Assembly (NCBI GenBank): GCA_009377605.1
Contig: WHTT01000022.1
Coordinates: 1-64,000, forward strand
Length of the DNA: 64,000 bases
Reading direction: 5' to 3'
DNA from: Luteitalea sp.
GTDB lineage: Bacteria; Acidobacteriota; Vicinamibacteria; Vicinamibacterales; Vicinamibacteraceae
Under the pieces are notes generated by a model. That model had not been told where the DNA came from and did not search any database. It saw only the letters and a list, made by a program, of their open reading frames with translations. The first letter of the stretch is position 1. Each line of letters begins with the position of its first letter. The translations under genes were made by a program, and so were the position numbers. Below are positions 55,749 through 62,901 of the stretch, piece by piece.

Positions 55749-57653
55749 CTAGAGCACACCCACGCTGACCAATGACGGCAGCGCCTTCGAACGATAGACA
55801 CGCTGCGTGGCTTTCTGGAAATCTGCCTCTCGGGCTTGAAAGATGTTCATGAACTTCTGCGGGTTGATGTCGATGAGGGGAAACCATGTGCTCTGGATTT
55901 GAATCATGATGCGGTGTCCCCGCCGAAAAGTGTGGAACGTGTCGGACACCGTGAACTCCACCTTTGTCGGCTTGCCGGGCTCGAATGGCTGTGGCTTGTC
56001 GAAGCTATTGCGAAACTTGCCTCGGATGACCTCGCCACGCACAAGCTGCTGATAAGCCCCCATCGTGTTGTCCACCTCCCCGTCCCCGTCTGGGTAGCGG
56101 TCTGGATACACGTCGACGAGCTTCACGATCCAATCCGCATCCGTGCCGCTGGTTGACAAGTGGAGGCTCGGAATCAACGGGCCGGCGATGGTCACATCCG
56201 TCTCGAGCGGCTCCGTCTCGTAGACGAGGACGTCGGGACGACGAGCAGCGAAGCGCTGGTCGTCGACCATGTAATGCTGCGCCATCCCAGGCGCGATACC
56301 TGGGATGAACGGCACGGGCTTGTCTGGATCGCTTACGTACTCGTCGAAGGCGTCCGCGGTGGCTTCGGCCGGAGGATCGAACGACAAGCGACCGTCCGCC
56401 TGCAGGTAGAGCGCTCGCGTCACCGCCTCCATGGGCGGCCAAGCATCGAAGCGACGCCACCGGTTCGTGCCTGTCTCGAAGACGTACGCTTCTGGTAGCC
56501 CGTCCTTGCCGTCTCCCTTCAGCATGGCATTGAAGAACGGGAGCTCGATGTGCTCTTGATAGAACTTCGAGGTGGACGAATCGAAGCGAACATCGCCCAA
56601 CTCGTCTCCCTCGCCGCGAGCCCATCCGCCGTGCACCCACGGGCCCATGACGAGGATGTTCTGGGTGCTGGGGCTCTGCGTCTCCACGGCTCGATACACT
56701 TCGAGCGCCCCGAACAGGTTTTCCGCGTCGAACCACCCGCCCACGGTCATCACCGCCGGCTTGATGTCCTTCAGGTGGGGACGGATGTTACGCGCCTTCC
56801 AGAACTCGTTGCGCGCGTCGTTCGTCATGATCTCGTTCCAGAAGGGAATCTTGTCCTGAAAGAACCGCGCGGTCAGGTTGCGCACCGTGCCATGACGCAG
56901 GAAGAACTCGTACCCGTCCTCGAGCCCCTGCTCGAAGGGCGGCCCGGGGTACTCCTTCGTCGGCTTCGTGAACGGCCATCCTGCTCCTGAGAACCACCCA
57001 AAGGCGTGCGCGAGCAGGAAGGCGCCATTGTGGTGCCAGTCGTCCGCCGCGAACCAATCGGCCACCGGCGCCTGCGGCGACGCCGCCTTCAACGCGGGGT
57101 GTGCGTCGATCATCCCCGCCGCGGCGTAGAAGCCCGGATACGAGATGCCCCACATCCCCACGCGGTCGTTGTGATTCGGTACGTGCTTGATCAGCCAGTC
57201 GATGGTGTCGTACGTATCAGTGCTCTCGTCGATGTCGCGCGGTCCCTTCTTCACGTCCTTGTGTGGCCGCAGATGATCGAAGGAACCTTCCGACATCCAG
57301 CGTCCGCGCACGTCCTGGTACACGAAGATGTACCCTTCCTTCGCAATGAGCGGAGACGGACCGATCTCCGTGCGGTACCGATCAGCGCCGTAGGGCCTCA
57401 CGCTGTACGGCGTGCGACTGAGAAGTATGGGATAACGCTCTGACCGATCCTTCGGGGCGTAGACGACAGTGAACAGGCGAACGCCATCGCGCATCCGGAC
57501 GTAGTACTCATGCTTCGTGTAGTCGGTCTTGACCTCCTCCAGCCCCTGGGCGGCCAGCGCTGGGCGCTGCCCATGATGGGCGGCAAATCCACCGCCGAGC
57601 ACCAACGCGATAATCGAAGCGATCCACAGACGATGCAGTCGCCGGATGGTCAT
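55749..57653 (-). CDS. CocE/NonD-family exported serine hydrolase (X-Pro dipeptidyl-peptidase-like)
   Basis: A 634-residue exported hydrolase. Signal peptide 1-35 (WIASIIALVLGGGFAAHHGQ), an alpha/beta-hydrolase core with nucleophile Ser171 (GMWGISYPGFYAAAG) and the oxyanion-region YQDVRGRW, and a C-terminal jelly-roll domain (SGTDADWIVKLVDVYPDRYP, FTVSDTFHTFRRGHRIMIQI). Asp and His in LVMGPWVHGGW are likely triad members. The family cleaves X-Pro peptides, cocaine-like esters or beta-lactam acyl groups. ATG at 57653 is chosen for AGGAGG five bases upstream; longer forms lack it. Convergent with RegA. Confidence 0.9.
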   Translation of the reverse strand: MTIRRLHRLWIASIIALVLGGGFAAHHGQRPALAAQGLEEVKTDYTKHEYYVRMRDGVRLFTVVYAPKDRSERYPILLSRTPYSVRPYGADRYRTEIGPSPLIAKEGYIFVYQDVRGRWMSEGSFDHLRPHKDVKKGPRDIDESTDTYDTIDWLIKHVPNHNDRVGMWGISYPGFYAAAGMIDAHPALKAASPQAPVADWFAADDWHHNGAFLLAHAFGWFSGAGWPFTKPTKEYPGPPFEQGLEDGYEFFLRHGTVRNLTARFFQDKIPFWNEIMTNDARNEFWKARNIRPHLKDIKPAVMTVGGWFDAENLFGALEVYRAVETQSPSTQNILVMGPWVHGGWARGEGDELGDVRFDSSTSKFYQEHIELPFFNAMLKGDGKDGLPEAYVFETGTNRWRRFDAWPPMEAVTRALYLQADGRLSFDPPAEATADAFDEYVSDPDKPVPFIPGIAPGMAQHYMVDDQRFAARRPDVLVYETEPLETDVTIAGPLIPSLHLSTSGTDADWIVKLVDVYPDRYPDGDGEVDNTMGAYQQLVRGEVIRGKFRNSFDKPQPFEPGKPTKVEFTVSDTFHTFRRGHRIMIQIQSTWFPLIDINPQKFMNIFQAREADFQKATQRVYRSKALPSLVSVGVL

Positions 57654-57788
57654 CCAGTCCTCCTGATGGATGATGATACCTGTGCCCGCTGGTTTTCGGT
57701 GGTAGGCAGTGGTCTTCACAACGGAAAGGCTCTGCGATACGGTAGAAGGGTCTAGAGTCCCCGCTCCGCTCATCTGAAGAGAGTCATC

Positions 57789-58778
57789 ATGAAAACACGC
57801 ACATTGGGTCCGCTGAATGTCTCCGCGCTCGGCCTTGGCTGCATGGGCATGTCGTACGCCTACGGTCCGGCCGATGAAGCCGAATCGCTCCGTGTCCTCC
57901 ACCGCTACGTAGAGCTCGGTGGCAACTTCCTCGATACGGCTGAGATCTACGGCCCCTACGCGAACGAGGAGCTGCTTGGCCGCTTCCTGCGCCAGGTGCC
58001 GCGTGAGCAGATCGTCGTCGCCACGAAGTTCGGCTTTCGATTGGACCAGGCGACGCAGAAGATCGCCGGCGTCGACGGCTCACCGGCGAATGTCCGGAAG
58101 GTATGCGACGAGAGCTTGGGCCGGCTCGGCATCGACACCATCGACCTGTTCTACCAACATCGCATCGACCCAAACGTACCGACCGAAGAGACCGTGGGCG
58201 CGATGGCAGAGCTGGTCAGGGCGGGCAAAGTGCGCGCGCTTGGACTATCGGAAGCGGCGCCGGAGACGCTGCGCCGCGCGGCTGCCGTTCATCCCATTGC
58301 TGCGCTGCAGAGCGAGTACTCGCTCTGGTCGCGCGATGTGGAGCTGAACGGTGTCGTCGCCGCATGCCGGGAGCTCGGCGTTGGATTCGTGCCCTACAGC
58401 CCGCTTGGACGCGGTTTCCTGACCGGCACGATTCAAAAGGCGTCGGATATGTCACCTGACGATTGGCGCCACACGAATCCGCGGTTTCAAGGCGCCGCCC
58501 TGGAGAAGAACATCCAGCTCGCCGCGCACGTCAGGAATCTTGCCGAGCGCAAGGCGTGCACGCCGGCGCAGCTCGCACTGGCGTGGGTGCTGGCGCAAGG
58601 CGAGGATATCGTGCCCATTCCTGGTACCAAGCGCGTCAAGTACCTCGAAGACAACCTCGGAGCCCTCGACGTCACGCTGACCTCCGACGAGCTCGGTGAG
58701 ATTGACCGCTTCTTCCCGCCGGGGGCCGCCGAGGGCGAGCGGTATGCCGAGGACATGCTGGCGCTGGTCGATCGTTAG
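57789..58778 (+). CDS. aldo/keto reductase
   Basis: A 329-residue aldo/keto reductase of the Tas/YdbC group: [20 protein letters not shown], catalytic Asp49, Tyr54 ([14 protein letters not shown]), Lys80 (VVATKFGF) and His in [20 protein letters not shown]-binding [20 protein letters not shown] near the C-terminus. A typical soluble single-domain enzyme reducing aldehydes or ketones. ATG lies downstream of GAAGAGAG. Divergent from the CocE-like gene, followed by a membrane protein gene after 23 bases. Confidence 0.93.
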
Positions 58779-58801
58779 CCTCCGGTGGGCAGATCGCACT
58801 G

Positions 58802-59320
58802 ATGACTGGCCTTGCTGCAGCGATCGGTGGTGCGGTGGCCATAGCCGCCGTGAGCACGTTCGGTGACTTCATCTGGGCCAGTGCGATCCCAAGTCATCGC
58901 CCTCTCTACGGGCTCATTCACGGGACCTTGCTGCTTCTCTGCGTTGGTCTCTACCTCGGCACGTGCTCGGGAAAGGCCCTGCTGGGCGGCTGGGTGGGGG
59001 CATTGATTGGCCTCCTAGCCGCCGCCAGCTTCTACGTTCTGCAGCCCACGGCGGGATACTCGGCAATGTTTGCGAGCTGGATTGGCCTATGGGTGGCGCT
59101 CGGCTGGCTCAGCGGCCGCGTGCTCCGGAACCAGGCGAGTGTCGCCAAGGCACTGGCGCGCGGTCTGGTGGCCGCGGTGGTCTCGGGAATCGCCTTCTAC
59201 GCGATATCCGGCATTTGGCTTCCCTTCCGGCCCCGGGGTTGGGATTATCTGGCGCACTTCGGCGCCTGGACGCTTGCGTATCTCCCTGGATTTGCGGCGC
59301 TCCTTGTGACGCGCCGCTGA
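58802..59320 (+). CDS. multi-helix membrane protein of unknown function
   Basis: A 172-residue, very hydrophobic protein with about five helices: AAIGGAVAIAAVSTFGDFIW, LIHGTLLLLCVGLYLG, WVGALIGLLAAASFYVL, FASWIGLWVALGWLSG and GLVAAVVSGIAFYAISGIW, ending with a short basic tail. I do not recognise a family. It may be co-transcribed with the aldo/keto reductase. Convergent with the glucoamylase-family gene. No conserved charged residues within helices other than Asp in FGDF. Confidence 0.75.
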   Translation: MTGLAAAIGGAVAIAAVSTFGDFIWASAIPSHRPLYGLIHGTLLLLCVGLYLGTCSGKALLGGWVGALIGLLAAASFYVLQPTAGYSAMFASWIGLWVALGWLSGRVLRNQASVAKALARGLVAAVVSGIAFYAISGIWLPFRPRGWDYLAHFGAWTLAYLPGFAALLVTRR

Positions 59321-59360: not shown

Positions 59361-60722
59361 TCACTGGGGATGAACCGGGACGTTCACCATCCCGGCTCGA
59401 CGCAGTCCTGTCTGGATCTCCTCGTTCTCCATGAACCACGACCACACCCGACCCGTACGGAGGTTCTCTGCGCTCAGTAACGTGATCCCGACGTCGATGC
59501 CAATGACGTCCGGGTTGACCCATCCGTCGGTCGGGTGGAACGCGTCGGCAAACCCATAGCGCCCATAGATGCGATCCCCAAAGCGGCGATGCATCTCGCG
59601 GAGCGCCGGCAGCGCGACCTCGGGCGTGAACATCAGCGAGCCCGCAGGGGCGCATGGCACGACCGTGCCATCGATCTCCTTGGGGCGCGGCGGTGCGCCC
59701 CAGCCGCGGTACCCTTTCTTGCTGTCGGAGGATGTCAAGCCCCAGATGTTCTCACTGTAGCCTGGAAACTCTTTGGAGACATCCATCATGAACTGCCGCT
59801 GCGCATAGGTTGCCACCTGAGAGTTCGCGAACCAGTTCGGCTGCGGTCGCACCTGGTCTCGCCAGGCGCGAAAGTCAATCCATGCGTGCGAGTACTGGTG
59901 GACGAAGAGCGCTGGCGCCCGATGCACGTAGGTGTACGGCCCATAGGTGAACAGCGGACGCTCCCACGCTGCCCAGGACTCTGATGGCAGCGGATTGGAG
60001 CGGGCGCCCAAGCCGAGAATGTACAGGATCATCAACTCACAGTAGTGATCCCAGCGGGCCTTGACGAAGCCGCGCTCCGGCCTGTAGCCCATCGACAGCA
60101 AGGTCGGATGGCCGGCGAGCATCCACTCGAAATCGAGGCGGTTGTAAATCGTGTCGACGTGTCGCGCGACCTCCGCATCCTCTTTGAAGCACTGCTTCGC
60201 CGTGAGCGCTCCGGCAAGCAGCAACGCGGTGTCGATAGAGGAGGCCTCGCACTGCCACACGCGCTTGCCGTCCCTCATGTCGACGAAGTGATAGAACCAG
60301 CCGTGCTCGTGCGCCAGTTCTTCGGCAAAGTAGCGCACCGTCGTGCGCGCGCGGGTGAGGAGCTCGTCGCGCGGCCGCCAACCTCGGTCTGCCGCGATGC
60401 ACAAACCGGTCAGACCGAAGCCAACCGACGCGATGCTGGCTACGTGCTGGGCCCGCGGATGCGCCGAGCCATCGGTGCGCGCGCGGTCGCGGATGAGGCC
60501 GTTCTCGGTAGTGGCCTCCTCCCAGAAGAAGAGAAAGGCCCGCTTCGAAAGGTCCTCGAGAAACGTCTGGTCATCTTTCGTGAGCGTGTAGGAAACGTCG
60601 GGCGGTGGCGTCGGCTTCGCGGCACGTTGTGATGTCTGCGTCGCATTGACGATGCTGCGTGCACCGCCACCGACGGCGAGCAGCGTCGCCGCGCGCCACA
60701 GGAAGGTTCGCCTCGTAGTCAT
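59361..60722 (-). CDS. Tat-exported glucoamylase-family protein (PF10091-like)
   Basis: A 453-residue (alpha/alpha)6-type protein with a Tat signal (TTRRTFLWRAATLLAVGGGA). Motifs include LSKRAFLFFWEEATTENGLI, VGFGLTGLCIAADRGWRPRD, DTALLLAGALTAKQCF, YTYVHRAPALFVHQYSHAWI and WVNPDVIGIDVGITLLSAEN. These are characteristic of the putative glucoamylase family that acts on beta-glucans or related oligosaccharides; the acidic catalytic residues are probably in RAFLFFWEEA and the WVNPDV region. The ATG overlaps the stop of the upstream fusion gene (ATGA), so the two are translated together under the LacI-type control region at 61784. Confidence 0.88.
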   Translation of the reverse strand: MTTRRTFLWRAATLLAVGGGARSIVNATQTSQRAAKPTPPPDVSYTLTKDDQTFLEDLSKRAFLFFWEEATTENGLIRDRARTDGSAHPRAQHVASIASVGFGLTGLCIAADRGWRPRDELLTRARTTVRYFAEELAHEHGWFYHFVDMRDGKRVWQCEASSIDTALLLAGALTAKQCFKEDAEVARHVDTIYNRLDFEWMLAGHPTLLSMGYRPERGFVKARWDHYCELMILYILGLGARSNPLPSESWAAWERPLFTYGPYTYVHRAPALFVHQYSHAWIDFRAWRDQVRPQPNWFANSQVATYAQRQFMMDVSKEFPGYSENIWGLTSSDSKKGYRGWGAPPRPKEIDGTVVPCAPAGSLMFTPEVALPALREMHRRFGDRIYGRYGFADAFHPTDGWVNPDVIGIDVGITLLSAENLRTGRVWSWFMENEEIQTGLRRAGMVNVPVHPQ

Positions 60723-61612
60723 CGTACCTCGAAGCTCCGGGTCAGCCCACCCTCTGAGCTGCTACTCACGCGGATGCGGAACTCACCCGGTTCGACGACC
60801 CACCGCATCTGCTGGTCGTAAAGGCCCAGGTCGTCTGGGCCGATGGTAAAGCTCACGCGCTCGGTGGCGCCCGGCGCCACGGTAACCCGCTGAAAGTCAC
60901 GCAGAAGCTGTGCTGGCGGTGCCACGCTCGCCACGAGATCCTGCACATAGAGCTGCACGACCTCGTCTCCGGGTCGATGCCCCAGATTGGCAACCTCGAC
61001 GGAAACCGTCAGGGTGCCATCCGATGAGATGATGCTGTCGCTGCCCGTACCGCCAGGACCAGCGTTGCCCGGCAAGTTCGAAGAGCCGCCACCGGCGGCA
61101 CGCGCATTGTTCCCGAACGAGCCGGGAGTGAGCTGCGCCAGGCGGAGCGGGTCGCGGCCGTACGACGGCAACGACTCCACCTCTCGGGTCGTCAGCGTGC
61201 CACCAATCGTGCCGCCTGCCGTGTTGATGGTCGGGACCGCTTCCGCTGACACCGTCACCGTGTCCTGCGCCCCACCCACTTCGAGCTCCACGTTGACCGA
61301 CTGCATCTGCTCGGCGCTGATGCCGACATTCTCGAGAACCTCTGACGCGAAGCCCTCCTTTTCAATGGTGATGAGGTAAGGCCCTGGGACAAGACCCGTA
61401 AGGGAGAACCCCCCGGTGTCGGATGTCGTGGTCGTCCGTGTCAGACTCGTTTCCTGATTCACAATCGTCACGGTCGCCTCGGGAACGCGCGCCCCAGACT
61501 GATCCGTCACGATGCCCTGGATGCCTGCCCGGTACTGCGCACTGGCGATGGCAGCCGGCATCCACGCCAGCAAGGCGAGAACCGCAATCCTCTTGCCAAC
61601 CAAGGTTTTCAT
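60719..61612 (-). CDS. in-frame fusion of TonB-receptor N-terminus to GH3 FnIII-like C-terminus
   Basis: A 297-residue chimera. Residues 1-25 are a signal peptide (VLALLAWMPAAIASAQYRAG), 26-105 a carboxypeptidase-regulatory domain (DQSGARVPEATVTIVNQETS), and to about 190 the plug start of an Oar receptor (LPSYGRDPLRLAQLTPGSFG). At about position 61030 (near GTGSDSIISSDGTLTVSVEV) it switches, without frameshift, to the fibronectin-III-like C-terminal domain of GH3 beta-glucosidases (NLGHRPGDEVVQLYVQD, ERVSFTIGPDDLGLYD). The rest of the receptor and the GH3 catalytic part are missing. ATG at 61612 follows GGGGAGGTGG. A deletion of several kb, or assembly collapse, explains it. The product is unlikely to keep either function. 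Confidence 0.85.
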   Translation of the reverse strand: MKTLVGKRIAVLALLAWMPAAIASAQYRAGIQGIVTDQSGARVPEATVTIVNQETSLTRTTTTSDTGGFSLTGLVPGPYLITIEKEGFASEVLENVGISAEQMQSVNVELEVGGAQDTVTVSAEAVPTINTAGGTIGGTLTTREVESLPSYGRDPLRLAQLTPGSFGNNARAAGGGSSNLPGNAGPGGTGSDSIISSDGTLTVSVEVANLGHRPGDEVVQLYVQDLVASVAPPAQLLRDFQRVTVAPGATERVSFTIGPDDLGLYDQQMRWVVEPGEFRIRVSSSSEGGLTRSFEVR

Positions 61613-61783
61613 CGTCCACCTCCCCTTCCGACTCCTTCCAGAACGGCCGACGCTCGGGTGCCGCGCAACCGCGGGGACACACCCTCCGGGCAACCGAGCG
61701 CAACAGTCGCCCGGGTCGGGCCCGCCAGCGTCGAGACGCCGTGGGTCGAGCCACGTTTATGTCATGACAAGGCAGAATCCTAC

Positions 61784-61796
61784 TAAAACGTTTAAC
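61784..61796. promoter_or_regulatory. LacI-type operator
   Basis: TAAAACGTTTAAC contains the palindromic core AAACGTTT (61786-61793) with the central CG that LacI/PurR/CcpA-type repressors recognise. It lies between the divergent fusion gene and the LacI-family gene and could control both. Confidence 0.65.
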
Positions 61797-61800
61797 TGAT

Positions 61801-62901
61801 GTGAAGAGGGTGTATCATCCCCCCCGGTCTGTCAAATCGGAGACTCCCTTGACCTCGCGCGCTCGCCCTTCCGCCTCGTCTCACGCCGGTCGCGTCACGC
61901 TTCGCGTGCTGGCCGACCACCTCGGCTTGTCGCCGGCGTCGATCTCCATCGTGTTGAACAACGCGCCGGCCGCCGCCGCCATCCCGCGCGCGACGCAGGA
62001 GCGCATCCGCCGCGCCGCGGCGCGGTTCGACTACCGCCCCAACACGCTCGCGAAGTCGCTGCGCCGGCAGCGCAGCTTCACGATTGGCGTGGTGTTGCCG
62101 GAGATCAGCGAGGGCTACGCGTCACTCGTCATGAGCGGTATCGAAGACGAGTTGTTGCAGGAGGGCTATCTCTACTTCGTGGCCAGCCATCGTCACCGCA
62201 CGGATCTCATCGACGAGTATCCCAAGCTCCTGCTCGCGCGATCGATCGAAGGGTTGATTGCCGTAGACACGCCCTGCGGCCAGCCGTTGCCCGTGCCCGT
62301 GGTTGCTGTCTCCGGTCATCGTCACACACCAGGTGTGACCAACATCGTCGTCAACCACGAGCGTGCCGCCGCGCTCGCGCTCGAGCATCTCTGTGCGCTC
62401 AAACACCGCCGCATCGCGGTCATCAAGGGACAGGCGTTCAGCTCGGACACTGCCGTACGCTGGCGCGCCATCCGGCTGGCGGCACGGCGGCTCGGCCTCG
62501 AGCTGGATCCGTCGCTCACGGCGCAGCTCGAAGGCGATAGCCCGTTCCCGGAGCTCGGCTACGAGGTCACGCGCCGGCTGGTCGGGAGTGGCCACAAGTT
62601 CACGGCGCTCTTCGCCTTCAACGACGTGTACGCCATTGGCGCGGTCCGCGCGCTTCGTGAGGCGGGGCTTCGTGTCCCTGAAGACGTCTCGGTGGTCGGC
62701 TTCGATGACATCCCAAGCGCCGCCTACCAGCACCCCGGCCTCACAACGGTCCGCCAGCCTCTCCGAGAGATGGGAAGGCTCGCGGCACAGGTTATGTTGA
62801 AGCGGATCGAGTCAACGAGCGGGGCCGATTATCCACGCCTCGTGAGCGTGGACCCCGAGCTCATCGTCCGAGGCACGACGACGCAGCTCGCGCGGAGGTG
62901 A
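61801..62901 (+). CDS. LacI-family transcriptional regulator
   Basis: A 366-residue LacI regulator: HTH TLRVLADHLGLSPASISIVL and hinge RFDYRPNTLAKSLRRQRS, then a periplasmic-binding-protein-like sensor (IGVVLPEISEGYASLVMSGI, CALKHRRIAVIKGQAF, FAFNDVYAIGAVRALREAGL, EDVSVVGFDDIPSAAYQHPG). The GTG at 61801 has no ribosome site; a TTG at 61849 preceded by GGAG six bases upstream is an attractive alternative start that still keeps the HTH. It faces the fusion/glucoamylase operon, so it is the probable sugar-responsive repressor or activator of that locus. Confidence 0.92.
   Translation: MKRVYHPPRSVKSETPLTSRARPSASSHAGRVTLRVLADHLGLSPASISIVLNNAPAAAAIPRATQERIRRAAARFDYRPNTLAKSLRRQRSFTIGVVLPEISEGYASLVMSGIEDELLQEGYLYFVASHRHRTDLIDEYPKLLLARSIEGLIAVDTPCGQPLPVPVVAVSGHRHTPGVTNIVVNHERAAALALEHLCALKHRRIAVIKGQAFSSDTAVRWRAIRLAARRLGLELDPSLTAQLEGDSPFPELGYEVTRRLVGSGHKFTALFAFNDVYAIGAVRALREAGLRVPEDVSVVGFDDIPSAAYQHPGLTTVRQPLREMGRLAAQVMLKRIESTSGADYPRLVSVDPELIVRGTTTQLARR

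Follow-up and report, generated by a model that had tools for sequence, protein, structure and literature searches.

Within the window analysed here, a 64,000-nt stretch of the draft genome of a soil-type acidobacterium (Luteitalea sp.), a single open frame joins the start of a TonB-dependent receptor gene to the end of a GH3 gene, and lies between a divergent LacI-family regulator and an intact putative glycoamylase gene (Table 1). All 297 residues of the encoded product are accounted for, with residues 1 to 194 resembling receptors and residues 195 to 297 the C termini of GH3 enzymes. The receptor-derived part comprises a signal peptide (by inspection, a hydrophobic N terminus ending in ASAQ), a CarboxypepD_reg domain (residues 31 to 111; E 1.2e-20) and the first part of the plug region. 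The GH3-derived part carries an Fn3-like domain (residues 217 to 286; E 1.7e-24) that covers the full Pfam profile, positions 1 to 71 of 71. The Pfam models for the plug, the barrel and the GH3 catalytic domains gave no match in this frame. The initial annotation had described an Oar-type regulatory and plug region at the N terminus, an FnIII-like GH3 domain from about 61030 and a reading frame unbroken across the join; we observe the same arrangement, with the plug region represented only by its beginning.

Table 1. Features of the fusion locus (window coordinates; G001 and G038 are related genomes described in the text)
Feature	Position	Strand	Basis
Receptor/GH3 fusion ORF	60719-61612	-	One open frame, 297 codons, 61612 -> 60719
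Receptor-derived half (residues 1-194)	61031..61612	-	PF13620; 73-75% aa identity to 1155-aa receptor of G001
Junction of the probable deletion, codons 194/195 (ATC/ATC)	61028..61034	-	Codon-level comparison with receptor and GH3 of G001 (L160)
GH3-derived half, last 103 residues and stop	60719..61030	-	PF14310; 75-77% identity to G001, 62% to G038
ATGA stop/start overlap, fusion ORF/glycoamylase	60719..60722	-	ATG 60722-60720, TGA 60721-60719
Intact putative glycoamylase (PF10091), 453 aa	59361..60722	-	E 6e-65, profile 3-220/221
Sigma-70-like promoter TTCACA-17-TAGGAT, palindrome AAACGTTT in spacer	61777..61805	-	Promoter scan, consensus match only
Divergent LacI-family regulator	61801..62901	+	Pfam LacI/Peripla_BP_3; 86% aa identity to syntenic G001 gene

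The likeness to Oar-type TonB-dependent receptors (CarboxypepD_reg, plug, barrel) is limited to the N-terminal 194 residues, whereas the rest of the plug region and the barrel, about 930 residues, are lost. Likewise, the last 103 residues resemble GH3 beta-glucosidase-family enzymes with a C-terminal Fn3-like domain, but both catalytic domains of these enzymes (barrel and alpha/beta sandwich) are absent. A structure prediction of low confidence (mean pLDDT 47.5) shows only beta-rich structure at the two ends, with disorder between them. Without barrel and catalytic domain, the predicted product cannot work as a receptor or a glucosidase, and the ORF should be annotated as neither.

The start codon of the fusion has GGGGAGGTGG just upstream. 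The palindrome in the promoter spacer, located between the -35 and -10 boxes, is presumably a LacI-type operator; it lies at 61786 and is the sole copy in the window. The downstream glycoamylase has a twin-arginine-like N terminus, MTTRRTFLWRAA (read by eye). Its ATGA overlap with the fusion, already pointed out in the initial annotation, is evident from both the sequence and the ORF coordinates. Among overlaps between adjacent prokaryotic genes on one strand, the ATGA type is the most frequent, and it has been linked to translational coupling (PMC10666635). The LacI neighbour, the operator motif in the promoter and the overlapping glycoamylase gene are all present at the locus, the regulation being putative, and intact receptor and GH3 genes are absent from it. 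Most simply, a two-gene unit would remain under the control of LacI and yield a non-enzymatic first product followed by the glycoamylase.

The locus in a congener and in more distant relatives

An intact locus in a relative, proposed as a check in the initial annotation, is present in G001, the one other genome of the genus compared (locus L160, contig C11), where a LacI gene, a 1155-aa receptor gene and an 806-aa GH3 gene stand side by side in synteny with the window. Fusion residues 1 to 204 align with this receptor at 73% identity and residues 192 to 297 with the GH3 enzyme at 75%. Homology to the intact receptor ends at fusion residue 194, and the GH3 enzyme is represented only from about residue 704 of 806 onward. 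At the codon level, the receptor reads to GGC AGC GAC AGC ATC and the GH3 gene begins at the next ATC, which places the junction between 61031 and 61030. When the DNA of the two loci is compared, synteny extends over both flanks, reaching the histidine kinase region and an aldo-keto reductase in one direction and LacI in the other, and is broken by a single jump at window positions 61028-61031. The codon-level comparison leaves 4,904 bp of G001, at L160:7364-12267, without a counterpart in the window, in line with the loss of "several kb" that had been proposed.

An 11-bp repeat, CAGGTGAGCGC, is found near both breakpoints in G001 and in the same codon phase. It was rejected as the deletion site, being off the junction, where a join would leave 13 more codons, and could at most have contributed to a deletion in two steps.

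Unlike the window, the G001 locus has no glycoamylase, and about 100 bp separate the end of its GH3 gene from the conserved gene that follows. An S15-type peptidase of the window (55749-57902) is likewise absent from the G001 locus, and a small gene at 58802-59320 is inverted there (window 57711-59316 versus L160 5351-6957).

In G038, a member of another family of the same order, LacI, a 981-aa receptor, a 748-aa GH3 enzyme and a glycoamylase 65% identical to that of the window are encoded in that sequence. G023 displays LacI, receptor, glycoamylase, an intervening stretch and GH3, and in G066, G067 and G082 receptor and glycoamylase are found with no GH3 in between. The gene orders in these five genomes and G001 indicate that receptor, GH3 and glycoamylase are a recurrent, variable gene group, of which the window holds the two ends. 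The LacI gene also adjoins the operon in G038 and G023. G001 shares the motif around AAACGTTT, which is conserved in part in these two genomes as well. Among the LacI-linked receptor/GH3/PF10091 loci of this bacterial order, the window shares with G038 the regulator, the operator motif and the order of the gene ends, but differs in the absent middle 4.9 kb and in the class of receptor. The 981-aa receptor of G038 was considered as an orthologue of the fusion N terminus and rejected in favor of the G001 receptor, which matches at 73%; the fusion gave no match to the 981-aa type in G038 at E 1e-6, and about 30% in a related G082 receptor.

The initial annotation held that the ends of a receptor-GH3-glucoamylase operon had been joined after loss of its middle. 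Since the full LacI-receptor-GH3-glycoamylase order exists in G038, this operon was correctly inferred, and the synteny in G001 agrees with it. We propose that in the ancestor an Oar-type TonB receptor, a GH3 enzyme and a glycoamylase were encoded in one operon for carbohydrate use under LacI control. A single deletion of ~4.9 kb, or several in the same stretch, would then have removed everything from receptor codon 194 (fusion numbering) to a point about 103 codons short of the GH3 stop, leaving the two ends in frame. Since the promoter and its LacI operator, the ribosome-binding site and the ATGA overlap are all retained, the intact glycoamylase can probably still be expressed under LacI control, and the fusion ORF is likely to serve as a translated, non-enzymatic leader cistron that keeps it expressed. 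We consider it likely that the fusion ORF is a deletion remnant of this LacI-controlled operon and a case of ordinary gene decay. Operon decay by deletion between neighbouring genes shows the same in-frame joining of ends and differs only in the genes involved. Read together with its intact congener, the locus would illustrate operon decay from the middle, in which the last enzyme gene keeps its link to promoter and regulator.

Selection on the two halves and a possible function

In pairwise comparison with G001, dN/dS is 0.157 for the receptor half, 0.165 for the GH3 half and 0.145 for LacI. Relative rates are about even between the window and G001 branches in the receptor half, and in the GH3 half 8 changes fall on the window branch versus 3 on the G001 branch (p 0.23). 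At conserved GH3 columns the fusion departs in 4 of 31, and 17 of 81 other GH3s show as many departures or more. These comparisons reveal no sign in either half that selection has been relaxed for long; the deletion is therefore recent, or the frame is still constrained, or the join is an artefact.

That the in-frame fusion is under selection, as a secreted two-domain protein or as a coupling leader for the glycoamylase, seems to us quite improbable; if the frame were kept for coupling, the finding would matter more. The first of these roles, a functional new secreted protein of regulatory beta-sandwich and Fn3-like domain that might, e.g., bind glycans or provide a scaffold as a partner of the glycoamylase, would fit the retention of open frame, signal peptide and ribosome-binding site, the dN/dS of about 0.16 in both halves and the conserved GH3-tail positions, which are within the normal range. 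However, the low dN/dS mainly records evolution that preceded the deletion, the stretch of plug region left behind is predicted to be unstructured in the same low-confidence model, and the combination occurs in one genome only, searches of the genus and of the genomes of 85,000 species having returned receptors or GH3s. We regard such a protein as very improbable. Literature searches found nothing specific to this fusion.

Deletion weighed against misassembly

The initial annotation had left open whether the join is a real deletion or a misassembly; the evidence leans toward deletion, with misassembly as the main rival. In the latter case the organism would still carry an intact 4.9-kb segment, the contig would have been misjoined (by a chimeric read or a bad gap fill) and the missing piece would have remained unbinned. 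The source assembly is a draft of 382 contigs, which leaves room for such an error, as do a receptor on its contig C11 that contains, next to an N gap, what seems to be a piece of a transporter, internal losses in other genes (a receptor on C58, GH3 genes on C6 and C57) and the fact that neither half of the fusion shows relaxed selection. Assembly programs make wrong joins where repeats reach k-mer length. Against an error at this junction, contig C22 is free of Ns both inside the window and beyond it, the 140 bp surrounding the junction are found a single time in the genome, and the longest exact word common to both G001 breakpoint regions is 11 bp (within 100 bp), much shorter than the k-mers used in assembly. 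Nor does any other contig of the assembly, which is rated 97.5% complete, carry the missing segment: the nearest homologue of the missing receptor part, beyond the junction, reaches 48%, and that of the missing GH3 part 43% or less. With neither Ns nor a repeat of assembler length at the junction, the balance favors a real deletion over a misassembly, and an artefact is in our view unlikely. The in-frame join itself does not discriminate, having a one-in-three chance under an error and an unselected deletion alike.

We conclude that the deletion probably lies in the organism rather than in the assembly. The receptor family is very large, with about 145 matches in the organism's own genome, where the next-best receptor match to the N-terminal part of the fusion is 47% (contig C1) and the C-terminal part matches GH3 enzymes. 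Receptors broken by frameshift or internal loss are also seen in G001, and G002, a single-contig genome, has frameshifted receptors too; decay of this large receptor family is thus natural in these bacteria.

Other damaged genes

At C11:64672-65295 of the source assembly (L164, C11:59000-66000), a receptor is interrupted by an apparent short MFS-like transporter fragment beside a 10-N scaffold gap and continues past the gap, which is likely an assembly error. The damaged genes on C58, C6 and C57 were found through their short frames and give no rate. On C58 (12326-12796 and downstream; L070/L201), a 275-aa receptor has its N terminus fused in frame to an apparent last barrel strand; its closest G001 homologue is intact (1159 aa, 79% over the N terminus) and lies at a locus that is not syntenic. 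In a 460-aa GH3 at C6:88321-89472 (L066), the catalytic barrel runs in frame straight into the Fn3-like domain, and the alpha/beta sandwich domain is missing. Finally, the GH3 at C57:16558-18041 (L187), about 70% identical to an intact neighbour at C57:23109, is missing about 185 residues, and its frame changes at the gap.
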